A stretch of 64,000 bases of DNA, taken from Nakamurella antarctica (GTDB lineage Bacteria; Actinomycetota; Actinomycetes; Mycobacteriales; Nakamurellaceae). Positions 1 through 10,895 of the stretch are shown piece by piece. Every line of letters starts with the position of its first letter. Positions within the stretch are counted from its first letter, which is position 1. The position numbers and the translations under genes are program-made. The DNA lies in the NCBI RefSeq assembly GCF_003860405.1, contig NZ_CP034170.1, positions 1,984,001-2,048,000 of the forward strand. Reading direction: 5' to 3'. The notes below the pieces were generated by a model that worked only from the letters and a program-made list of their open reading frames with translations, made no database searches and was not told the origin of the DNA.

Positions 1-845
1 AGTGGATAGTCCCGCTGGCCGGCCGCGACTACCAATCCCTGCCCCATGCCGGGGAGGCTGAAGGCCACCTCAACGATCACAGTTCCGAACAGGGCATAGC
101 TGGCCTGTACGGCGGTGACCGTGATGAGAGGAGGCAGCGCGTTCCGCAACACAAAGTGCCGCATCAGCCCGAATCCCGAATAGCCGAGCGTGCGGCCGGC
201 CAGAACATACTCGGTCGTCTGCAGGCTGAGAATCGTAGCTCGCAGACTTCGGATCATGGGAGGCATGATGGCGATCGCCACCACCACAGCCGGAAGCACG
301 ATGGAGCGCAGATTCTCTCCCGGGGTACGGCCGATACCCGCAACCGGAAACCATCCCGTAGGGAGGGCGATGAAGGTAATCACCATGATGGATAGCCAGA
401 ACGTGGGTAAGCCAGTCCCCAGGACGTTGAATCCTCGGATGATCTGATCCCCGATGCCACCGTTACTGCGGGCGGAGATGGCAGCGAGCGGTATCGAGAT
501 GACGATTGCCAGCAGGATCCCCGAAGTTGCGAGTAGCAACGTGACGGGGAACTGCTCGGCAATCTGGGCACTCACGTTCCTACCCGATTTGAACGATTTG
601 CCAAGGTCGCCCTGCAAGGCCGAGACGAGGTAGTTGAAGTACCTCGTCCACAGCGGCTGGTTGACTCCCAATTGCTCGCGAGCCCGGTCCACCTCGGCGT
701 CGGACGCTCGGGGCCCGACCACGAGTCGAGCCGGGTCCCCGGGCGTCAACGACAGCAAGAGCATGACGACCAACAGAATCCCCAATAGAAGGGGAATCAG
801 GCTGGCCAACCTCCGCACAACGAAGCCAAAGCGATTGGATTGCAT
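1..845 (-). CDS. Peptide ABC transporter permease, DppB/OppB-like (3' end cut by window edge)
   Basis: The reverse strand reads open from an ATG at 845 to the window edge (281 codons, no stop), starting MQSNRFGFVVRRLASLIPLL. It forms one inner-membrane channel subunit of a dipeptide/oligopeptide importer. An N-terminal membrane helix is followed by the family hallmark SLTPGDPARLVVGP, a periplasmic stretch with QLGVNQPLWTRYFNYL, and several hydrophobic segments. The cytoplasmic EAA-type loop EYVLAGRTLGYSGFGLMRH contacts the ATPase, and the C-terminal signature EVAFSLPGMGQ is present. It lies 21 bp downstream of the binding-protein gene on the same strand, so the two are co-transcribed. The usual DppC, D and F partners would lie to the left, outside the window. 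Family assignment is firm; the substrate is inferred from neighbours. Confidence 0.9.
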   Translation of the reverse strand, partial: MQSNRFGFVVRRLASLIPLLLGILLVVMLLLSLTPGDPARLVVGPRASDAEVDRAREQLGVNQPLWTRYFNYLVSALQGDLGKSFKSGRNVSAQIAEQFPVTLLLATSGILLAIVISIPLAAISARSNGGIGDQIIRGFNVLGTGLPTFWLSIMVITFIALPTGWFPVAGIGRTPGENLRSIVLPAVVVAIAIMPPMIRSLRATILSLQTTEYVLAGRTLGYSGFGLMRHFVLRNALPPLITVTAVQASYALFGTVIVEVAFSLPGMGQGLVVAAGQRDYP

Positions 846-866: not shown

Positions 867-2471
867 CTAGTTGGTCTTCCAGACATTCTCTAGCGCATAG
901 GTGCCCCACAGCGTCAGCTGCAGACCCTTCACCGTTGGCTGGGCTGCTCCAAGGGAGCGCAGGTGCGCCAGAGCAATAAACGGCGCCTCTTTGAAGTACA
1001 CGTCTTGGACGATGCCGATAGCCTTCTCTTGTTCCGCCGGGGTCTTTGCGAGCTGGTAGGCCTTGAATTGAGCATCGACCACGTCAGAGGAGAATCCGGT
1101 CCGCATGCCGTCTGTGCTCGTAACGTACGAGATCGGATCCGTCACGTCGGGCGAGATCGCATTGTAGGCAAACGAGGCGAGTTGGTACTTGCCGTCGTCC
1201 AAGTTAGCCGACCGCTGGCCGGAGTCCACCGGGGTGAGAGTGACCGTGATACCGATGTCCTTCAGGTTATCCGCCAAAATCTGGCCCAGCAGTACAGCAT
1301 CGCCGTTAGCTGTGAAGAGGAACTCCAAGGTGGTGGGCGGGTTGGCAGCAGTAGCGAGCAGCGCTTTGGCTTTCTCCACGTCACGCGAGAAGTAGGGCGA
1401 ACTCGGGGGTGCCCAGTGCAGCAAGTTGGAAGGAAGTGCGCCTGTCGGTGCGCTGCCATAACCGCTGTAGACGCTCTTGAGAATGGAGGGGTAATCGAGC
1501 GCATAGCCGATCGCCTGCCGCACGATGGGATCGGACAGTGCAGGGTCCTTGGTGTTCATCAACAGGACTGCTGTGTTGTGCTCGGCGACTGGAAGGATCA
1601 GGCTCTGGTCAAGCCCCAATGCGATCACCGGGCTGAGCTCGTCCGCGACATCGATCTGGGCTGCCTTCAGCTGCAGCGATAACGAGTTGGAGTCGGCGGA
1701 GTAGCTGCTGACCACCTTGTCGAGGTAGGGCTGTCCTGCTTTGTAGTATTTCGGGTTCTTCGTCAGCACGACGTCTCCACTGGAGGCCCAGCTCTCTACG
1801 AGGAACGGACCAGCACCAATGGGTGCCTGCCAGAACTCCTCGGCGGTGCGTCCGCCGAAGTCTTTGGGAACGATCCCGGCGTTAGACCAAGCCAGGTAGT
1901 TGGGGAGTGTGGAGTCGGGGCCCGACAAATCCAGTTCAATGGTGTCGGCGTCGACGATGACCGTCTTCTCAATACCGCCGTAGATCGGCCCATAGCTGGG
2001 GCCGGCCTGCCACGTCTTGATGGAGAATGCAACGTCCTCTGGCGTCACGGGATCACCATTACTGAAGGTGACCTTTGGGGTGAGGTCGATGGTGAGGACG
2101 GTGTTGTCGGCGTTGAAGGTCCACTTCGAAGCAATACCCGGCGCAAGATCCGTGCCTTCGGCGTTGACGCGGATCAGTGGTTCAAGCACTGCCTCGGAGA
2201 GCTGAAAACTTGCGTTGACAGTCTCTTGGTCAAGGTTGAAACCCTCGAAGAGGTTGCCGCGGCCGACTGAGAGCGTTCCACCGGAGATCGGGGCGGCGGC
2301 GTCGCCCGCAGGCGCTGAACTAGCATCGGATGACGAAGAACCAGGGGCCGGCGCCGAAGAATTGGATGCGGGCGAAGAATTAGAGTCGCTGGACGAGCAA
2401 CCAGCAAGAGCTAGGGCCGTCGTGATCGACAGCGCACCAATGACGCGCAGCCGTGATCGCATGGGATTCAT
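867..2471 (-). CDS. Peptide ABC transporter substrate-binding lipoprotein (SBP family 5)
   Basis: A 534-residue extracytoplasmic solute receptor of the DppA/OppA family. The signal peptide ends in the lipobox ALAGC with the lipidated Cys at residue 25. A low-complexity Ser/Ala linker (about 26-62) precedes the SBP_bac_5 fold, including LEPLIRVNAEGTDLAPGIAS and the region VTPEDVAFSIKTWQ. GGAG sits 7 bp upstream of the first ATG, which supports this start. The gene follows the dipeptidase fusion after 98 bp and precedes the DppB-like permease, so it is the receptor of that importer. Neighbouring peptidases suggest short peptides, possibly with D-residues, as ligand; this is inference. The 98-bp gap may hold an internal promoter, but I see no clear boxes. 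Confidence 0.92.
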   Translation of the reverse strand: MNPMRSRLRVIGALSITTALALAGCSSSDSNSSPASNSSAPAPGSSSSDASSAPAGDAAAPISGGTLSVGRGNLFEGFNLDQETVNASFQLSEAVLEPLIRVNAEGTDLAPGIASKWTFNADNTVLTIDLTPKVTFSNGDPVTPEDVAFSIKTWQAGPSYGPIYGGIEKTVIVDADTIELDLSGPDSTLPNYLAWSNAGIVPKDFGGRTAEEFWQAPIGAGPFLVESWASSGDVVLTKNPKYYKAGQPYLDKVVSSYSADSNSLSLQLKAAQIDVADELSPVIALGLDQSLILPVAEHNTAVLLMNTKDPALSDPIVRQAIGYALDYPSILKSVYSGYGSAPTGALPSNLLHWAPPSSPYFSRDVEKAKALLATAANPPTTLEFLFTANGDAVLLGQILADNLKDIGITVTLTPVDSGQRSANLDDGKYQLASFAYNAISPDVTDPISYVTSTDGMRTGFSSDVVDAQFKAYQLAKTPAEQEKAIGIVQDVYFKEAPFIALAHLRSLGAAQPTVKGLQLTLWGTYALENVWKTN

Positions 2472-2569: not shown

Positions 2570-4348
2570 TTATAGGGGATGTCGGTTGCGAGCGCGCTCG
2601 AATGCGGAGTCAGTGATGTGAAGGACGCGGAGGATGTTGTCCGAGGCCAATGCGGAAAGCTCGGCGGCAGACCAGCCCCGGCGCCTTAATTCCGCGAGCA
2701 GCGCCGGATAGGAGGACACATCTGTCAACCCCTGGGGGGTCGAGGAGATCCCATCGAAGTCCCCGCCCAACCCGACGTGGGCAATGCCCACCACATCACA
2801 CGAGTGCTCGATATGGTCGGCAACATCCGCCAGATATGCCGGTGAATACGGCTGCCCCGCGGCGCGTTTACGCGCTCCGGAGGTGCGATAGGTCTCAGAA
2901 ACGAACTGCGGGACAAAGGTAATCATCTGCACTCCCCCATTTGCCGAGAGGCGGCGGAGTACGCCGTCGGGAACGTTGCGGTCGTGGCGCGTCAGTGCGT
3001 AATTGGAGGAGTGGCTGAAGATCACTGGAACCTTCGCAACGTCGAGCACATCGTGCATTGTCGACGCCGACGTGTGGGACAGATCGACCAGAACGCCCTG
3101 CCGCTCCAACTCCGCGACGAGCATCGCCCCCTTCTCACTCAGGCCGTTGTGCAGCTTTTGGCCGGTAGCGGAGTCTGCCCACATGGTGCTCTCGTTGTGG
3201 GTAAGCGTCATATAGCGCATGCCCGCGCGGGCGAGCTCGGCCACATTCTCGATCCGACCCTCCAGCACGTTGCTGCCCTCGGCTCCGATCAAGCAACCGA
3301 TCTCGTCGCGGGAAATCGCTTCTCTTACCTGCCGCGCAGAGGGGCTGAACGCGAGGGCGTTCGGAGCGTGTTCAATAACCTCGCGCACGCGGGCGATCTG
3401 TTCGGTGATCACCGCGAAAGGCTCGGGTGTGCCATCGGGCACCCAGACCGACCAGAACTGTGCACCCATCTCACCAGCGCGCATGCGCGCTAGATCCGTG
3501 TGCCGTTCCGGGATCCCAGTCGAAAAGCGCTCCGCGCCGATTCCACCCTCGCGCATCTCCCAAGGGAGATCGTTATGCCCGTCGATGACGCGGATCTTGC
3601 GCGAGGATGCCCGCTCTGCCGCGATGCCCACAAAGTTATTGACGAGCCTGGAACTTGCTGCCTCCAAGCGAGGTTCGTCTCGCGCCGCCTGCTCTTGCAG
3701 TGCTGAAAGGTCCATCCCCTCGGCGGCAAGGGAGGCCGCGTCCCACTGCGCAAGGCGTCCGATCGGCGCTTCCGGATGGAATTGAACACCCCACGCGAGA
3801 TCCCCGACCCGGAAGGCCTGGACCGCGCAATTGTCGTTTTCAGCAAGATGCACCGCGTCCGCTGGCAAGGCCGTGATCTGGTCTTGATGGTTTTGCAACA
3901 CGACGAACTCGGATTCCACACCCGTGAGCAGCGCATCCTCAGCCGCCTCTGCTCGCTGACGGACCAGCACAGTTCCGCGTTCGGGCACCCCGAACCTGCC
4001 CGTCACAGTTCCTCCCGCCACCTCCGCCAGCAGTTGCGCTCCCAAGCAGATGCCTAGCAATGGAACATTTTGGGCGAGACACCGAGAGGCGAGCAGCCGC
4101 TCCGCCGCCAACCACGGCGCCTTCTCGAACTCGCTGGGCAGCAAACCACCTCCGAGGAGGATCACTCCGTCATAGCCGTCAGGAGTATCGGGAATGTCGG
4201 CCGTGACCGACACTGTGGTCGTCGCGCCGGCGGCATTCAATCGTGGCAGCAGGGTGCCCGGACCACTGCGGGGCGAGTTCACGACCACGAGCAGGGACAC
4301 GGGAACCCGCGGCGAAGCAGCCGGGCCTGGCTCGGTGAAATCCGTCAT
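2570..4348 (-). CDS. Fusion of a class I glutamine amidotransferase-like domain with an M19 (renal-type) dipeptidase
   Basis: A two-domain protein of about 592 residues. Residues 15-240 are a class I glutamine amidotransferase-like domain with the nucleophile elbow LLGICLGAQ (Cys101) and WGVQFHPE (His191, Glu193), so the Cys-His-Glu triad is intact. Residues 253-592 are a membrane-dipeptidase domain: HND (His258, Asp260) for the first metal ligands, LIGAEG, LTHNE, VDLSHTS, VIFSHSS and GLGGDFDG. M19 enzymes hydrolyse dipeptides, often with a D-residue at the C-terminus. There is no signal peptide, so it is cytosolic. I chose ATG 4348, which has AGGTG 6 bp upstream; a GTG at 4357 would overlap the racemase gene by 8 bp. 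The fusion is unusual, since each domain is normally a separate protein. The role of the amidotransferase half is unknown: perhaps hydrolysis of a gamma-glutamyl or amide bond. Confidence 0.88.
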   Translation of the reverse strand: MTDFTEPGPAASPRVPVSLLVVVNSPRSGPGTLLPRLNAAGATTTVSVTADIPDTPDGYDGVILLGGGLLPSEFEKAPWLAAERLLASRCLAQNVPLLGICLGAQLLAEVAGGTVTGRFGVPERGTVLVRQRAEAAEDALLTGVESEFVVLQNHQDQITALPADAVHLAENDNCAVQAFRVGDLAWGVQFHPEAPIGRLAQWDAASLAAEGMDLSALQEQAARDEPRLEAASSRLVNNFVGIAAERASSRKIRVIDGHNDLPWEMREGGIGAERFSTGIPERHTDLARMRAGEMGAQFWSVWVPDGTPEPFAVITEQIARVREVIEHAPNALAFSPSARQVREAISRDEIGCLIGAEGSNVLEGRIENVAELARAGMRYMTLTHNESTMWADSATGQKLHNGLSEKGAMLVAELERQGVLVDLSHTSASTMHDVLDVAKVPVIFSHSSNYALTRHDRNVPDGVLRRLSANGGVQMITFVPQFVSETYRTSGARKRAAGQPYSPAYLADVADHIEHSCDVVGIAHVGLGGDFDGISSTPQGLTDVSSYPALLAELRRRGWSAAELSALASDNILRVLHITDSAFERARNRHPL

Positions 4349-4349
4349 C

Positions 4350-5450
4350 TCAGGCACCTGCCTTCGCTTGGTCCACGCGAGAAAAGATCACGTCGTGCCC
4401 AATTCCCGCGCCGAGGGGCACCTGCACCACCCCAGCTTCTGCCACGACCGCCGGCTCGATCACATCCAGGGCGTAGTACTTATCCGAACCCGAGACATCG
4501 GAGGGGTAGTCAAAACCGGCCAGAGAGCACAATGCGATATTCGCGGCGCGGCCCACTCCGAACTCGTGCATTCCGCCGCACCAGACTGCGATGCCCTCGG
4601 CCGTAGCCAACTCATAAGCGGTGAGTGCAGCAGTCAGTCCGCCCATCCGGGAGACCTTGATGTTAAGAACGGTGCCAGCGTCGAGCGCGATCATGGTGCG
4701 TAGATCCCCCAGATCCACGATTGACTCGTCTAAACAGACGGGCGTGGCGATGGCTTGGCGCAGGTTGGCGTGGGCCACGAATTCCCGCGCGGCAAAAGGT
4801 TGTTCAATCATGGCGAGGTCAAAGGCATCGAGCTTGGCTAGATGATCCACCGACGAACGGTGGGGTGAGTAGCCCCCATTAGCGTCAACATGCAGCAGCA
4901 CATTCGGGAACCCTGCGCGTGCGGCCCGGACCGGCTCGACGTCCCAGCCGGGCTTGATCTTCAATTTCACGCGCGAATATCCGCCATCCACGTGGTGCTG
5001 AATCTGCCCCAAGAGCGCGTCGATGGTGGGTTCGATCCCCAGGGACACCCCCGCAGCGACCTGACTACGCGTTCCCCCCAACGCCTTCGACAGGGAAACA
5101 CCGCGCAACCTCGAGAACAGGTCCCAGGCTGCAATATCGAAGCCTGCCTTGGCGAACTCATGGCCCCGCACCTGGTTCAATCTGGTGGCGAGCTCGTGGG
5201 GTTCGCGCCACTCGTAGTCCAGCGTTAATGGCCGCAGGTACCGCGCAGCGATGAGCTGCGCGGTTTCGACAGTCTCGGCGCAATAGTAAGGATCGCTGGG
5301 GGAGGCGATCTCGCCCCAGCCACACTCCCCCGACTCGTCGGTGAACCGGACAAGGATGTGTTCGATCGACGCTTTGCGGTGCGAGCTGGTCTCGAATTCA
5401 TGAACAAGTGGCAGCGCCACGGGAAAAAGATCGACCTGTGTGACGCGCAT
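4350..5450 (-). CDS. N-acylamino acid racemase / o-succinylbenzoate synthase family (enolase superfamily)
   Basis: A 366-residue MenC-type enolase-superfamily enzyme. The barrel shows the KxK acid/base motif in VKLKIKPGWD (Lys162, Lys164), metal ligands Asp189 (HVDANGGY), Glu216 (MIEQPF) and Asp241 (CLDES), and the opposite base Lys265 (LNIKVSRMGG). The C-terminal block WCGGMHEFGVGRAANIAL is typical of NSAR/OSBS proteins rather than of L-Ala-D/L-Glu epimerases. The start ATG overlaps the upstream stop as TAATG, so translation is probably coupled. No other menaquinone genes are in the window, and the neighbours are a GNAT, peptidases and a peptide importer. Racemisation of N-acyl (succinyl) amino acids is therefore more likely than menaquinone synthesis. 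The family is certain; the substrate is inferred. Confidence 0.88.
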   Translation of the reverse strand: MRVTQVDLFPVALPLVHEFETSSHRKASIEHILVRFTDESGECGWGEIASPSDPYYCAETVETAQLIAARYLRPLTLDYEWREPHELATRLNQVRGHEFAKAGFDIAAWDLFSRLRGVSLSKALGGTRSQVAAGVSLGIEPTIDALLGQIQHHVDGGYSRVKLKIKPGWDVEPVRAARAGFPNVLLHVDANGGYSPHRSSVDHLAKLDAFDLAMIEQPFAAREFVAHANLRQAIATPVCLDESIVDLGDLRTMIALDAGTVLNIKVSRMGGLTAALTAYELATAEGIAVWCGGMHEFGVGRAANIALCSLAGFDYPSDVSGSDKYYALDVIEPAVVAEAGVVQVPLGAGIGHDVIFSRVDQAKAGA

Positions 5451-6106
5451 TAAGCATCTCCCTGCGATGGCCGAACGGTGTAGTCGAGCAGCTGCTCTTC
5501 GAGGAGTTCGCGCGCGCCCAGGCGACGACGCGCGCCCTTCGCCCGGGCGGAGGCGAGGGTAGACAGCACGTGACCCACGAGTGTGATCGACGTAGGCGAA
5601 TCCAGGTGTGATCCACCCTCGGTGGGTACCACGATGACGGAACTGGCGAACTCCGCGATGGGCGATTCGGCGGCGTCGGTGATGGCCACCACGCTTGCGC
5701 CCGCTCGCGCGGCGATCTCCGCCACGGAGATGGTGTGTCCGCGGTAGCGCCGAAATGAGAAGGCAACGAGACAATCGGTGCTACCGAAGTCGGTCAGCGC
5801 GTCGACCGACTCCTCGAGATCGACCCCGAGAACTGTGACACCGCCGAGGGCTGCGCGAAGAGAGTGCTCGAAGAGTTGTGCATGGATGTGGCTGCGCCCC
5901 ACCCCGACCACGGTGCGCCGGCGCGCCGCGACCAGGCTGACCGCCGCGGCAAGCACAGCGGGGTCGGTATCGATGCTTGTCAGCGCCGCCAGCACATTTG
6001 TTCGCTCGGCGGTGACCAGCTGACCGCGCAGCAACTCGGCCGAGGACCGGCGGCGGAGGCGGTCGTCGTACCGCAGGGCAGGGGTGTCGGCGCTGGCGGC
6101 TTTCAT
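5450..6106 (-). CDS. SIS-domain protein, RpiR-like but without the DNA-binding domain
   Basis: A 218-residue protein made almost wholly of a sugar-isomerase (SIS) fold: RTVVGVGRSHIHAQLFEHSL with the following helix, LVAFSFRRYRGHTISVAEIAARAGASVVAITD, and SSVIVVPTEG. In RpiR-family regulators this fold binds a sugar phosphate and follows an HTH of about 75 residues. Here only about 50 residues precede it, and I see no HTH. The ATG at 6106 overlaps the GNAT stop as ATGA, and the stop overlaps the next start as TAATG. The gene is therefore locked inside the operon and this start is well supported. It could be a ligand sensor acting with a partner, or an enzyme such as an isomerase. I assign no specific function. 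Confidence 0.8.
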   Translation of the reverse strand: MKAASADTPALRYDDRLRRRSSAELLRGQLVTAERTNVLAALTSIDTDPAVLAAAVSLVAARRRTVVGVGRSHIHAQLFEHSLRAALGGVTVLGVDLEESVDALTDFGSTDCLVAFSFRRYRGHTISVAEIAARAGASVVAITDAAESPIAEFASSVIVVPTEGGSHLDSPTSITLVGHVLSTLASARAKGARRRLGARELLEEQLLDYTVRPSQGDA

Positions 6107-6918
6107 ACGGAATCCTGTTGGCAGAGATAGGCAAACACGCCCGGAGCCACCCGGACGCACTGCACCGCTGCGTAGCCAGCCTCCAGTACGCGCCGCAAGG
6201 ATCCAGCCACCAGAGGTCGGGTGTCTTCCGGCGCCTGAGGCCCTGCGGGGAGGGTGATCGCCGCACGGGAGGCATCGAGCTGCTGCACCTGACCGAACAA
6301 TGCGGGTGCGCTGTCAATCGAGGCAGTAATGACAGGCTGATTTGCCGAGCCATCCTTTGCCGCGCCATTCCACTCCACGCCATTCCACTCCGCGCCATCC
6401 CACTCCACGCCATCCCACTCCACAATGAGTCGGTCGGAGTGCCCATCGTCGTAGAAGTCTGGCTTGAACCACCGGGCGCGCGCGCCCAGCCTGCTGAGAT
6501 TGAAGAATGCGTTGCGGGTGTTCATTGGATCGTAAGGCCACCTCATCGACGTGAACCCACCGCGGCGAGCCTGATCCATCTGGGCGTGCTTCAGGGCTCG
6601 CCCCACCCCCCGGCCTTGCCATTCCGCATCGACGCATGCCGCCTGCGAGAACAGGTACGGCGTCGCATTATCGATGGCGGGAAACCCGTAGACGAATCCG
6701 ATGAGGACCTTTTCGTCGCTGAAAGCACCGACCGCGGTACCTCCGGCATACATGAGGGACCGCATCAGCTTGGTGTTCAACGTGAACTGCTCGGTGTAGT
6801 GAAACACCCGCTGGTAGAGGGAAGAAGCCTGTTCGAACTCCTGACGCTCGGTGAGCGGCCTCAGCTCAGCGGCGGGTGAAGCAGCCACGAGAGAATTCTG
6901 AGCGGAAATAGCGTCCAT
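6103..6918 (-). CDS. GNAT-family N-acyltransferase (putative amino acid N-acylase of the racemase cluster)
   Basis: A 271-residue GCN5-related acyltransferase. The acyl-CoA pyrophosphate loop is QGRGVGRAL (101-109), preceded by the strand AACVDAEW and followed by a conserved block ending WPYDPMNTRNAFFNLSRLGA. The latter resembles the predicted-acetyltransferase group (COG3375) that accompanies NSAR genes. Residues 167-186 are four EWxG(V/A) repeats, probably an expanded form of the EW strand normally found there. As first gene of the leftward operon it faces the M20 gene across a short divergent promoter region. By analogy with the Geobacillus kaustophilus D-to-L amino acid pathway, it may transfer an acyl group from acyl-CoA to D-amino acids. 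That role is inferred. Confidence 0.82.
   Translation of the reverse strand: MDAISAQNSLVAASPAAELRPLTERQEFEQASSLYQRVFHYTEQFTLNTKLMRSLMYAGGTAVGAFSDEKVLIGFVYGFPAIDNATPYLFSQAACVDAEWQGRGVGRALKHAQMDQARRGGFTSMRWPYDPMNTRNAFFNLSRLGARARWFKPDFYDDGHSDRLIVEWDGVEWDGAEWNGVEWNGAAKDGSANQPVITASIDSAPALFGQVQQLDASRAAITLPAGPQAPEDTRPLVAGSLRRVLEAGYAAVQCVRVAPGVFAYLCQQDSV
6361..6420 (-). repeat. Four 15-bp tandem repeats inside the GNAT gene
   Basis: Four in-frame copies of a 15-bp unit, close to CACGCCATTCCACTC on the plus strand, encode EWDGV, EWDGA, EWNGV and EWNGA. Copies differ at one to three positions. The repeats lie after a strand that reads RLIVEWDG. They do not break the frame, and a change in copy number would alter length by five residues per unit. 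Confidence 0.9.
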
Positions 6919-6977: not shown

Positions 6978-7081
6978 ACAGAAGTTTACAGTTTGAGAGC
7001 TTGGACACGTGGAGTGTGCTTGAGTGGACCGCACGTGATCATCACCAGTGGGTTACGGATCGAACATCGAAGGTGGCAGAC

Positions 7082-8239
7082 ATGAGCGAACCGGTCCTAG
7101 CCGTAATCGACGCCCAGTTTCAGCACCGGGTGATCGGGCGACTTCAACGGCTCGTGGAGCACGAGTCCCCCAGCGGCGATATCCCCGCACTTCAGGGTTT
7201 CGTCGGTCTCCTGAAATCAACATGGGAAGATCTGGGCATCGCCGTAACTGTCCGCGAAACTCCCGGCGGTCCGGTTCTGGTCGGCGATTTACCGGGTCGA
7301 GGGTGGGGCGTTGGGCTGGCTCCAATCCTGCTCATCGGCCATTCCGACACCGTGTGGCCAATGAGCACACTTGGGTCACGGATGCGGTGGTCCCACGACG
7401 AGCAGGGCGTGATTTGGGGACCCGGCGTCTTCGATATGAAATCTGGCCTCGTCATCATCGAGTTCGTTATCGAATGCCTTCGCGGGGCCGGCTCGGGCCA
7501 TCCACCGTTGCGGATCTTCGTCGCCCCCGACGAGGAGACAGGATCCACCCACTCGCGCGTAATGCTCGAGGAGGCTGCCATCGGATGCTCCAGCGCAGTC
7601 GGTTTCGAGTCCCCACACCCAGACGGCAGGTTAAAGATCGGCAGGTTCGGCAGCACCAGACTGCGAGTGCGGGTCACAGGACGAGAGGCGCACGCTGCGT
7701 TGGATGCCGAGCGTGGGATCTCTGCCATCGATGAGCTCGTCGACCAGCTCCTCGTCATTCGATCGATGGTTGCAGCAGCCACTGATCCTGAGCACCTCGT
7801 ATTACTGAACGTGGGATCGGTAGAGGCACCGGGCAAGACCAATGTTGTCTCCAGCCAGGCTTGCGCGCAGATCGGCCTCCGCTTTGCCCGAAAAGATGAA
7901 GAAGATGTGCTTGTGCCAGCGCTGTTAAATCTGGCTCCCATTCGCCTCGGCGCCGGTGTCGAGGTCGTCATCGAGTCGCACCGTCCGGCCTGGTCCCCGC
8001 ATCCTCGCGACACCGAACTCGGCGCGCGCCTGCTGCCCGGGCAGGTGCCGGGCAGCCCAGCCCGCGGGGCCGCCGACACCAACGCGATGGCGGGTCTTGA
8101 CATCGCAGCGGTCGACGGCCTCGGCGCGAGGGGCGCCGGCGCGCACGCCCTTGAAGAACGGATCGTTGCGGCATCGCTATGGGACCGTATCTCTTCACTG
8201 GTCGAGGCGTTCGGCGACGAGAAAAGATGGGCTGCGTAA
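7082..8239 (+). CDS. M20-family metallopeptidase / N-acyl-amino acid deacylase (carboxypeptidase G2-like)
   Basis: A 385-residue di-zinc hydrolase. Motifs in order: GHSDTVWP (His87, Asp89), GPGVFDMKSG (Asp118, bridging ligand), APDEETGS (Glu151/152, catalytic base and ligand), GFESP (Glu176), dimerisation domain from about 190 to 290 with REAHAALDAERG, then ADTN and GAGAHALEE (His355). It most resembles glutamate carboxypeptidase-type M20 proteins. ATG 7082 follows AAGGTGG at good spacing; an upstream in-frame start at 7001 lacks this. The gene is divergent from the racemase operon. In the known NSAR pathway an M20 enzyme removes the N-acyl group from the L-isomer, which fits this position, but cleavage of peptides is equally possible. 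Confidence 0.88.
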   Translation: MSEPVLAVIDAQFQHRVIGRLQRLVEHESPSGDIPALQGFVGLLKSTWEDLGIAVTVRETPGGPVLVGDLPGRGWGVGLAPILLIGHSDTVWPMSTLGSRMRWSHDEQGVIWGPGVFDMKSGLVIIEFVIECLRGAGSGHPPLRIFVAPDEETGSTHSRVMLEEAAIGCSSAVGFESPHPDGRLKIGRFGSTRLRVRVTGREAHAALDAERGISAIDELVDQLLVIRSMVAAATDPEHLVLLNVGSVEAPGKTNVVSSQACAQIGLRFARKDEEDVLVPALLNLAPIRLGAGVEVVIESHRPAWSPHPRDTELGARLLPGQVPGSPARGAADTNAMAGLDIAAVDGLGARGAGAHALEERIVAASLWDRISSLVEAFGDEKRWAA

Positions 8240-8277
8240 ACAACACATTCAGGCATCCGGGCAGGCGCTGCGAGCTA

Positions 8278-10629
8278 TCAGGTTGCCGTAGCGAGCACCT
8301 CGGGCAAATCTTGGGCGTGCAGGATGCCGAGCCGTTGGGTGGCCCGAGTGAGCGCAACGTACAGATCGGACAACCCGTTGGGCAAGTCGGCAATGATGTC
8401 AGCGGGTTCGATCAGCAGCACCGAATCGAATTCCAAGCCCTTGGCGCTCACCACCTCGAGCACCACCACCCGGTGGCCAAGGCCGGCCATCGCCGAGGCG
8501 TGCGGCACCAGGGCTCGCACTGCGGTCAGCACAGAATGCTGCTGCCCCGGCGCTACCAGGATGGCCAGTTGTCCCTCGCTGTAGGACTGCAGTTCGCGAG
8601 CAGCCGCGGCGGCAATGGCGCGTGGTAATTCCGTTTCGCTCACGCGTAGCGTCCATGGTGCGAACCCGCTGGTACGCACAGAGATGGGGGCCGTGAGCGT
8701 CGGAGCGATAGCAGCCAACACGGGCGTGGCCACCTGCATTATTTCCGCCGGCGTGCGGTAGTTCACCGTCAACTCCTCCAGCCGCCAGCGATCACGCACA
8801 TGCGGATTCATCGCTTTCGCCCATGACGACGTGCCGGCGGCATCCGACGTTTGGGCCACGTCCCCTACCAACGTCATCGACCGCATCGGGCATCTGCGCA
8901 TGACCATGCGCCAAGCCAATGGTGAAAGCTCTTGTGCCTCATCAACTATTACGTGGCCGTAAGTCCACTCACGGTCCGCTGCTGCTCGATCGGCGGTGCT
9001 GAGGTAGGCTGCCTCCTCCTCATTCATCACTGCGAGCTGCTCCGCTGTGACCATGCCGAGCGTGAAGTTAATGCCCAGATCCGCTTCTGCCGATTGGGAG
9101 GAATTCATTGCATCCAGCGTCTTCTCGGCGAAGGCCAGCTCTTCAGCGCGGGCTTGCACCTGCGCGCGGTCCACGCTTCCGACGGGACCTAAAAGCTCTG
9201 CGGCTTCGTCAAGTAACGGCACGTCGGCCGCGGTCCACGCGTCAGGTTCGGTGCGATGCAACAGGTCTCGATCCCGCTGCGGCCACCCCGGGGTTGCAAA
9301 ACAGATGCGCCGCACCGACGAATACAGTTCGCTCAGTAGCTCCGGCGCTGTCAGCGGGGGCCAAAGACCCGCGAGGGCCTCGTGCACTGCCGGGTCTGCC
9401 GCCATCTCCTTCCGGATCTCGGCGTAGTCGGCCCCTCCTGCGTATTCCTCCATTTGCTTCACTCCGGGCCTGCCGACCACTTGCTTGGCCAAACCATCGA
9501 GCACCACCCGAAGGAATATCTGCCGCGCTCTATTGTGAGGCAGCCTGGAGGCCCACGCCTGTCGTCGGGCCTTGATGAGCAACGACGGTTCCAGGCGGAG
9601 TCGGCCGCGGTCATAGGTAAAGGCGATGGCGCGCTTCGGAAGTATCTGCCGATGCAGCACCGCGTTGTCGATGACTTTGGACATCGACAGGCGCCCCTTG
9701 ATCTCGGCGGTGGGTCCCGCCTCGGGCAGCCGCGCATTCACGCCGGGAAATAACGTCCCCATGGTCGCCAGCACCACCGACGACTCGCCGAGGTTCGGCA
9801 GTACCTGGCCGATATAGGACAGGAAGGTCTGGTTGGGGCCGATGACGAGAACGCCGTGCCCACCGAGTCTTTCACGGTGCGTATAGAGAAGGTACGCCGC
9901 GCGGTGCAGCGCCACCACGGTTTTCCCAGTCCCCGGCCCGCCTTGTACGACAAGCACCCCGTTGCGGTCGGACCGGATGATCCGGTCCTGCTCGGCCTGA
10001 ATGGTTTCAATAATGTCACCCATCCGCCCGGTCCGCGGGGCATTCAGAGCTTCGAGCAACGCGGAATCACCGGCTGATCCGAGATCGTCACGGGCCACGG
10101 CCTGCGCGTCGGCCTGCAGATATTCATCCGCCACCGCTTCGACACGGTCTCGTTTGGTCCGGATATGCCGTCGCCGTCGCACGCCCAGTGGGTTCATTGC
10201 TGTCGCGGTATAGAAGGGCGCCGCGGAGGGTGCCCGCCAGTCGATAAGGAGTTGGCGTCGCTCCGTGGTGCCGTCTGTCAAACCCATCCGCCCGATGTGC
10301 AGCGATTCGCCGTCATCGGTGTCGAGCCTGCCGAAGGCCAGCTTGGCCTCAGCTGCCGTAAACGCGGAAATCTGTTGAGAATAGCGGTGCTGCAGCGCGT
10401 CTCGGTTGAATCGACCCGCGGGCGTGCCGTCGGAGGAAAATCTGGCGTCATCTCGGTGTGTGACCGCCTCGGCGCGCATCTGAGCAAGCCGCTCGTACAT
10501 CCGGCTCAGAGCAATCTGCTCTTGCGCCTTCGGGTCCATCTGGGCCTGCTCGAAACCTCCATGTCGATCGCGCTGCACCGGCGCTGGATCGCTGCTGATA
10601 ACTGCTGGGTCGGGCACAAGTCTCCACAT
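8278..10629 (-). CDS. HelD/HelR-like RNA polymerase-associated motor ATPase (UvrD-type superfamily 1)
   Basis: Up to 783 residues. The N-terminal coiled-coil (about 35-100) is followed by the family-specific block HIGRMGLTD and LLIDWRAPSAAPFY, then Walker A GGPGTGKTVVALHR (about 230) and a long insertion. Motif II is VIVDEAQELSPLAWRM, then LVGDVAQTSDAAGTSSW, TVNYRTPAEIM, and the C-terminal SAKGLEFDSVLLIEP and YVALTRATQRLGILH. HelD/HelR proteins bind RNA polymerase and release stalled complexes; actinobacterial HelR is linked to rifampicin tolerance. The start may instead be ATG 10539 (MDPKAQEQIA). The gene converges with the M20 gene and stands alone. Confidence 0.85.
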   Translation of the reverse strand: MWRLVPDPAVISSDPAPVQRDRHGGFEQAQMDPKAQEQIALSRMYERLAQMRAEAVTHRDDARFSSDGTPAGRFNRDALQHRYSQQISAFTAAEAKLAFGRLDTDDGESLHIGRMGLTDGTTERRQLLIDWRAPSAAPFYTATAMNPLGVRRRRHIRTKRDRVEAVADEYLQADAQAVARDDLGSAGDSALLEALNAPRTGRMGDIIETIQAEQDRIIRSDRNGVLVVQGGPGTGKTVVALHRAAYLLYTHRERLGGHGVLVIGPNQTFLSYIGQVLPNLGESSVVLATMGTLFPGVNARLPEAGPTAEIKGRLSMSKVIDNAVLHRQILPKRAIAFTYDRGRLRLEPSLLIKARRQAWASRLPHNRARQIFLRVVLDGLAKQVVGRPGVKQMEEYAGGADYAEIRKEMAADPAVHEALAGLWPPLTAPELLSELYSSVRRICFATPGWPQRDRDLLHRTEPDAWTAADVPLLDEAAELLGPVGSVDRAQVQARAEELAFAEKTLDAMNSSQSAEADLGINFTLGMVTAEQLAVMNEEEAAYLSTADRAAADREWTYGHVIVDEAQELSPLAWRMVMRRCPMRSMTLVGDVAQTSDAAGTSSWAKAMNPHVRDRWRLEELTVNYRTPAEIMQVATPVLAAIAPTLTAPISVRTSGFAPWTLRVSETELPRAIAAAAARELQSYSEGQLAILVAPGQQHSVLTAVRALVPHASAMAGLGHRVVVLEVVSAKGLEFDSVLLIEPADIIADLPNGLSDLYVALTRATQRLGILHAQDLPEVLATAT

Positions 10630-10895
10630 GGTTGATTGCCGGGTAATGCCGCTACGACGTGAGCATCAAAGCTACCCCGTCTGGCAGCCCTGACCGATCC
10701 AGTCCGTCGCAAACTACCGGGGGTGAGCTTGCGACCTCGTCGCCTGGTCAGACCCGCGGTGGTTTGTCACGCCTTAAGCTGGGGCACAGGGCGTGCGCAG
10801 GGTCGCAGATTGTGCGGCGCCAAAACCAATGAATGAGATGAGATTTAGTTGATGACGCGTCATTGCTTCGCAGCACCCCGTACCCAGGCCACCGC

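Follow-up and report, generated by a model that had tools for sequence, protein, structure and literature searches.

One gene of the Nakamurella antarctica genome joins a class I glutamine amidotransferase (GATase) domain to a dipeptidase domain of family M19. It lies at positions 2570-4348 (minus strand) of the window, i.e., the whole stretch of 64,000 nucleotides that was analyzed, and encodes a protein of 592 aa. The fusion is real and intact-looking, it is apparently rare, and a role in the breakdown of imported gamma-glutamyl and D-residue peptides is plausible. The observations behind this reading are the catalytic residues kept in both domains, the gene neighborhood, a conserved module of M20 and GNAT-SIS-NSAR genes, and a recurring pairing of GATase-type with M19 domains.

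The fusion gene and its protein

The gene starts with ATG at 4348 and stops at 2570; an alternative in-frame GTG is found at 4357. The frame is uninterrupted (592 aa from the ATG, 605 codons from stop to stop) and open on the minus strand only, the plus-strand reading containing stops. In Pfam, the protein matches Peptidase_M19 (1e-99, residues 250-577), GATase (2.6e-22, residues 44-194) and Peptidase_C26 (4.9e-10, residues 83-193), all above the curated cut-offs, and both fusion domains are far beyond chance. The fusion proposed earlier from the letters of the sequence (hereafter, the sequence-only reading) is thus borne out, and its strand can be added. The third-position GC is 0.73, compared with 0.68-0.76 in the operon neighbors. 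A read-through or frameshift origin was rejected, since the 605 codons contain no stop and the codon composition is like that of the neighbors; frame continuity and codon composition, when checked, did not point to an artefact of assembly or frameshifting. As no signal peptide was seen when the sequence was read by eye, the protein is taken to be cytosolic. In an AlphaFold2 model, the M19 half is confident (most ten-residue blocks at least 85), and the GATase half has a pLDDT of 23-49, which is attributed to the absence of GATase rows from the alignment of the model.

The GATase half comprises residues 1-245 (3614-4348, minus strand). It scores 79.8 bits against PF00117 (residues 44-194; cut-off 22.8) and 40 bits against Peptidase_C26. 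The Cys-His-Glu triad C101, H191 and E193 is identical in all 30 rows of the GATase alignment (29 distinct proteins, one gene having been entered twice), so these residues had been correctly named and numbered. An inactive, purely structural Cys half, raised in the sequence-only reading as an objection, is not what the alignment suggests, as the half does not appear degenerate. The nearest solved relative of this half alone is 9xfs (72 bits). It resembles the glutaminase subunits of GMP synthase (1.5e-12, up to 51 bits) and, with a lower score, gamma-glutamyl peptidase 1 (GGP1; 1.1e-10, 45 bits); the best NCBIfam matches are unspecified glutamine amidotransferases, all under the cut-off. With the GMP synthase subunits outscoring GGP1 and the NCBIfam matches unspecific, the half may by sequence be either a hydrolase or a glutaminase. 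Pfam found no ammonia acceptor (synthase) domain in the fusion protein, and the domain joined to the GATase belongs to a hydrolase family. A function as ammonia donor is disfavored, although a partner encoded elsewhere might use the ammonia; an M19 hydrolase would have no evident use for it.

The M19 half (residues 246-592; 2573-3613, minus strand) covers the full length of the Pfam domain (PF01244, 1e-99; 334 bits, profile positions 4-318 of 319). H258, D260, E357, H384, H425, H446, R457 and D530 are invariant in all 13 rows of the M19 alignment, for which 12 of the 14 loci from a peptide-pattern scan (see below) were used and the partial L048 and L049 were left out. His258, Asp260 and the later metal motifs are therefore kept as had been claimed, with correct numbering. 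Judging from the renal dipeptidase structure, we take H258, D260, E357, H425 and H446 to be metal ligands and H384, R457 and D530 to be substrate residues. The nearest solved relative is the bacterial renal-dipeptidase homologue 3id7 (284 bits), presumably Sco3058. The half has a branch of 1.85 in a 34-row tree, where the median is 0.43, and EGSN at 357-360, where the consensus of its relatives is EGGH; mainly for these two reasons its activity is viewed with caution. The divergence after fusion may have changed its substrate or activity. The genome also encodes a second, stand-alone M19 protein.

The operon

The genes of the minus-strand run follow each other in the order GNAT, SIS, NSAR, fusion, solute-binding protein, two permeases and two ATPases, with an M20 gene divergent from them. 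The NSAR gene (4350-5450, minus strand) encodes a racemase of the NSAR/OSBS family (enolase superfamily); one base separates its stop TGA from the ATG of the fusion, and the two genes overlap instead if the GTG start is used. Scored on a longer frame (4350-5774), the racemase reaches 278 bits with TIGR01928 (cut-off 200.65), a model named o-succinylbenzoate synthase. Its best PDB match is 1wue (273 bits; named by superfamily only), followed by the N-acylamino acid racemases 1sja and 1r0m (~260 bits). It therefore passes the TIGR01928 cut-off and lies near solved N-acyl/N-succinylamino acid racemases. The other menC-type gene of the genome scores 391.6 bits (cut-off 288), with one TGA within the matched stretch.

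The SIS-domain gene (5450-6106, minus strand; Pfam SIS, 2.7e-13) overlaps the NSAR start with its stop (TAATG) and the GNAT stop with its start (ATGA). Its product resembles MurR/RpiR regulators; a DNA-binding domain was not found by Pfam. The GNAT acyltransferase (6103-6918, minus strand; Pfam Acetyltransf_1, 1.5e-05) is presumed to be a D-amino-acid N-acyl(succinyl)transferase. An in-frame repeat, EWDGVEWDGAEWNGVEWNG, follows the acyltransferase domain; it is short and, because other frames over this stretch repeat as well, probably reflects a tandem repeat of the DNA. The M20 metallohydrolase (7001-8239, plus strand; Pfam Peptidase_M20) is a presumed N-acyl-L-amino-acid hydrolase; its best match is PRK07338 "hydrolase" (138 bits) and its second PRK06133 glutamate carboxypeptidase (131.7 bits, under the cut-off of 349). 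A gene for a UvrD-like helicase, which we take to be HelD-like, converges on the M20 gene (8278-10629, minus strand).

On the other side, the gene for the solute-binding protein of a peptide-type ABC importer (867-2471, minus strand; SBP_bac_5, Pfam 1.3e-70) begins 98 bases past the fusion and probably belongs to the same transcript. Part of the first permease gene follows (1-845, minus strand). The importer genes beyond the window (second permease, two ATPases) were read on L053, whose coordinates are those of the window plus 10000: the permease/ATPase set begins with 9895-10845 and continues with 9035-9898, 8244-9176 and 7426-8247. The set was identified by matches to ABC transporter genes that are annotated in L025, an Arthrobacter record.

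Distribution of the fusion and of its parts

No second copy of the fusion was found among 16 other genomes of the genus (the family level comprises the same 17 genomes) or among overlapping samples of 199 genomes of the order, 393 of the class and 295 of the phylum, searched with limits of 1e-60, 1e-70, 1e-85 and 1e-90, respectively; in the order, class and phylum samples the best 3-6 candidates per genome were scored, and a more distant fusion could escape. The passing matches were M19-only, without a GATase match in their frames. A search of 84,980 species with six short peptide patterns turned up 14 relatives by matches in the M19 half, of which three start at residue 222 or 227; none of these 14 loci had a GATase match, which is weak evidence of absence as the patterns are narrow. 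A widespread fusion, the other objection raised in the sequence-only reading, is thus not what the sampled genomes contain. A narrow search of the open-access literature found no papers on the GATase/M19 domain pair.

The two domains had been known to the sequence-only reading as separate proteins; their pairing does, however, have a precedent. Among 72,556 plasmid records, one (Phocaeicola massiliensis) covers at least 80% of the fusion query, at 26% identity. Its 585-aa protein (L024:7773-9530) has a Peptidase_C26 domain (230.9 bits; GATase 61.9) ahead of an M19 domain (338 bits), and a relative of this protein (49%) occupies one frame in Prevotella (L201:4974-6800). The record annotation lists no gene at either place. 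A virus collection contained 3 GATase loci, all distant, and relatives of the C26-M19 protein were not found there; an alignment (A3) with two short viral-contig rows was left unused, those rows being badly placed. With two Bacteroidales records carrying a Peptidase_C26-M19 fusion, the GATase/M19 combination is rare but has precedent.

The GATase half has matches at 1e-33 or better in 28 of 394 class genomes, the genome of the window included. The M19 domain is in the same frame in none of the 27 others, and an M19 gene stands beside the GATase relative in one of them (flanks ~1.5 kb). Wider flanks, some ending at contig ends, were taken for 20 of the 27: permeases like those of this operon lie beside the GATase gene in 3 (L106, L107, L122), and for several others the matches are to ABC ATPases alone. 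The window domain groups with L057, L058, L059, L060 and L122 (86/96, unstarred branch) in a tree of 29 GATase proteins. Three of these five clade relatives are found beside Opp-type permease and ATPase genes, two of the three being from one genus (L059 and L060 are the genes of L106 and L107), and these gene contexts were known before the tree was made; for L057 and L058, neither an importer permease nor an M19 match was found within 9 kb. Outside the clade, the 15 examined genes had no permease match, and 4 had ATPase matches alone.

The run in L122 (genome G402; L122:8929-16491) consists of permeases, an ATPase gene, an S66 LD-carboxypeptidase, a Beta-lactamase2 protein, M19 and GATase. GATase follows immediately after M19, the opposite of the order in the fusion. 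This is the clearest sign that both halves work together, though it comes from a single genome and with reversed order, and the cluster is a candidate for wall-peptide or D-peptide salvage. In the tree, the M19 protein of L122 is not the nearest relative of the M19 half of the fusion; a direct derivation of the fusion from an L122-like gene pair was not supported, as the order is reversed and the M19 halves are not sisters. A gene for a PucR-type regulator is located at 2782-4371 of L122. In L107, a Beta-lactamase2 protein is encoded beside the GATase and importer genes; a similar protein was recognized in L106 by reading, without a family search. As the L122 gene pair and the Bacteroidales C26-M19 fusions demonstrate, the GATase-type/M19 pairing recurs.

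The NSAR protein has matches at 1e-60 or better in 99 of 296 genomes of the class sample, the genome of the window included, and 40 loci were fetched (the best matches, then others further down the list). In all 15 loci with an NSAR identity of at least 60%, the SIS gene lies between the GNAT and NSAR genes, and the M20 gene is divergent from GNAT; these are few independent cases, since one family accounts for 14 of the genomes and one genus for 12. The flanks of all 15 contain neither an M19 nor a GATase match; they extend ~9 kb to either side, apart from those of L155, L162, L163 and L168, the coverage downstream of NSAR being almost nil in L163. Across all 40 loci, a GATase match is found in none and an M19 match in 3 (L177, L182, L190), a count that leans upward because L190 was picked with its M19 already known. 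An M19 gene adjoins an NSAR-family racemase gene in L190 and in L094, one of the loci fetched for M19, and L094 also has an M20 gene nearby. An Arthrobacter plasmid record has, by annotation, genes for an ABC transporter, M19, M20, GNAT and a menC-type racemase together. L154 has two genes of interest downstream, for Beta-lactamase2 and Amidohydro_3 proteins, and we read the second as a D-aminoacylase.

Proposed role and alternatives

We see an even chance that the fusion is a cytosolic bifunctional two-step peptidase for imported peptides. The importer would bring in a gamma-glutamyl peptide. The GATase half, as a stand-alone hydrolase and not an amidotransferase, would release the gamma-glutamyl group via Cys101-His191-Glu193, and the two-metal M19 half would next cleave the freed dipeptide, typically L-X-D-Y. 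The L form would then be obtained from the D-amino acid by N-acylation (GNAT), racemization (NSAR) and deacylation (M20). M19 enzymes require a free dipeptide, which is why the GATase step is placed first. The last part of the scheme follows the NSAR route reportedly described by Sakai et al. in 2006, in which D-amino acids are converted to L-amino acids via N-succinylation, racemization and desuccinylation; the module is read as this N-succinyl route on the basis of that work. Both activities, the single transcript, the order of the steps, the D-residue substrates and the direction of the flux are what we infer.

The two-step processing put forward in the sequence-only reading is partly supported: both catalytic sets are kept, the importer, NSAR, GNAT and M20 genes fit stepwise processing of D-residue peptides, and the two kinds of genes are neighbors in L122. 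Speaking against the two-step model are the somewhat better scores of the GATase half with GMP synthase subunits than with GGP1, the 15 closest NSAR modules without M19 or GATase in their flanks, the clade relatives L057 and L058 without importer, the reversed order in L122 and the divergence of the M19 half. If the model is true, the removal of a gamma-glutamyl group and the cleavage of a dipeptide would be physically linked in the fusion. M19 dipeptidases, along with a GATase clade whose role is unknown, would then be connected to the way bacteria salvage D-residue peptides, and what "glutamine amidotransferase" genes do beside peptide importers could be tested directly.

Wall-peptide substrates, e.g. 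the fragments with amidated D-isoGlu suggested earlier, are one of several that fit. For salvage of this kind, the GATase half would attack imported stem peptides at the gamma-D-glutamyl bond (or at the isoglutamine amide), M19 would split L-Ala-D-Glu, and D-Glu would be converted to L-Glu by GNAT, NSAR and M20. We rate this as rather unlikely. The S66 LD-carboxypeptidase and Beta-lactamase2 genes with M19 and GATase in L122, the Beta-lactamase2 protein in L107 (and the similar one in L106), and the PRK06133 match of the window M20, second to PRK07338 and below its cut-off, are in line with it. However, the S66 and beta-lactamase families have other roles too, no muropeptide amidase or MurNAc enzyme was recognized among the operon genes examined in the window, and L-Glu is what gamma-glutamyl peptidases, like class I GATases, usually act on. 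It seems equally hard to credit, or slightly harder, that a single bifunctional enzyme dismantles imported cell-wall stem-peptide fragments in the cytosol with the N-acyl racemase route recovering the D-residue. In E. coli, the counterpart steps are those of MpaA, YcjG and PepD, to which the wall-peptide reading, if true, would add an alternative. A wall-peptide version is possible, and it is not favored over a general breakdown of gamma-glutamyl and D-residue peptides.

The two halves might also be independent peptidases joined for co-expression only, the GATase half acting on gamma-glutamyl dipeptides and M19 on other dipeptides, with neither feeding the other. A peptide importer would presumably supply mixed peptides, and the pair also occurs as separate genes in L122; the two apparently independent fusions (window and Bacteroidales) argue instead that the joint is beneficial, and we consider such independence improbable. 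It is very improbable that the GATase half serves as a glutaminase, or as a structural or regulatory domain that is catalytically idle: its similarity to the GMP synthase subunits is slightly above that to GGP1, but C101, H191, E193 and the surrounding motif are kept despite the divergence of the domain, and the protein lacks an ammonia acceptor domain.

Comparison with known systems

Among the closest known counterparts of the proposed two-step peptidase is the Bacteroidales fusion, in which a Cys domain of the gamma-glutamyl hydrolase type likewise precedes M19. The M19 halves of the window and Phocaeicola proteins have 98 bits in common. In contrast, the Cys half of the latter matches C26 best and that of the window GATase, and the L024 neighbors are butyrate kinase and M28 (frames read by eye). 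Compared with phmmer, the two Cys halves did not match at 1e-3; L057, from the clade of the window half, matches the Phocaeicola C26 half at 5.6e-06, so both are distant members of one fold family. A common origin of the two fusions was not supported, as their Cys halves lack a mutual match and have different best families; to judge by these comparisons, the two kinds of domains seem to have been joined separately in the Bacteroidales protein.

The single halves have stand-alone counterparts. The M19 half aligns with the 3id7 enzyme over residues 246-485 and 500-581, with metal and substrate residues kept, and differs from it in being fused, in EGSN for EGGH and in its long branch. The GATase half shares the fold family and the Cys-His-Glu triad with GGP1-type gamma-glutamyl peptidases and other stand-alone class I GATases, although its similarity to them is low (45 bits for GGP1, 72 bits for 9xfs). 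As in the NSAR pathway, NSAR, GNAT and M20 genes occur together, but in the window the GATase-M19 enzyme and a peptide importer accompany them. Removal of gamma-Glu followed by a dipeptidase has a parallel in the yeast Dug system, which consists of separate proteins from other families (Dug3 is a class II GATase, Dug1 and Dug2 are M20), and a further one in gliotoxin synthesis (GliK, GliJ). Work on yeast describes how the Dug2-Dug3 GATase complex removes gamma-Glu and the dipeptidase Dug1 then splits Cys-Gly (PMC6508711), which is the way the proposed scheme would work, and a review states that NSAR enzymes act on N-acylated amino acids with a lysine pair (PMC8142540). The Bacteroidales fusion and the adjacent genes in L122 lessen the surprise of the window fusion, yet make a functional link between its halves more credible.
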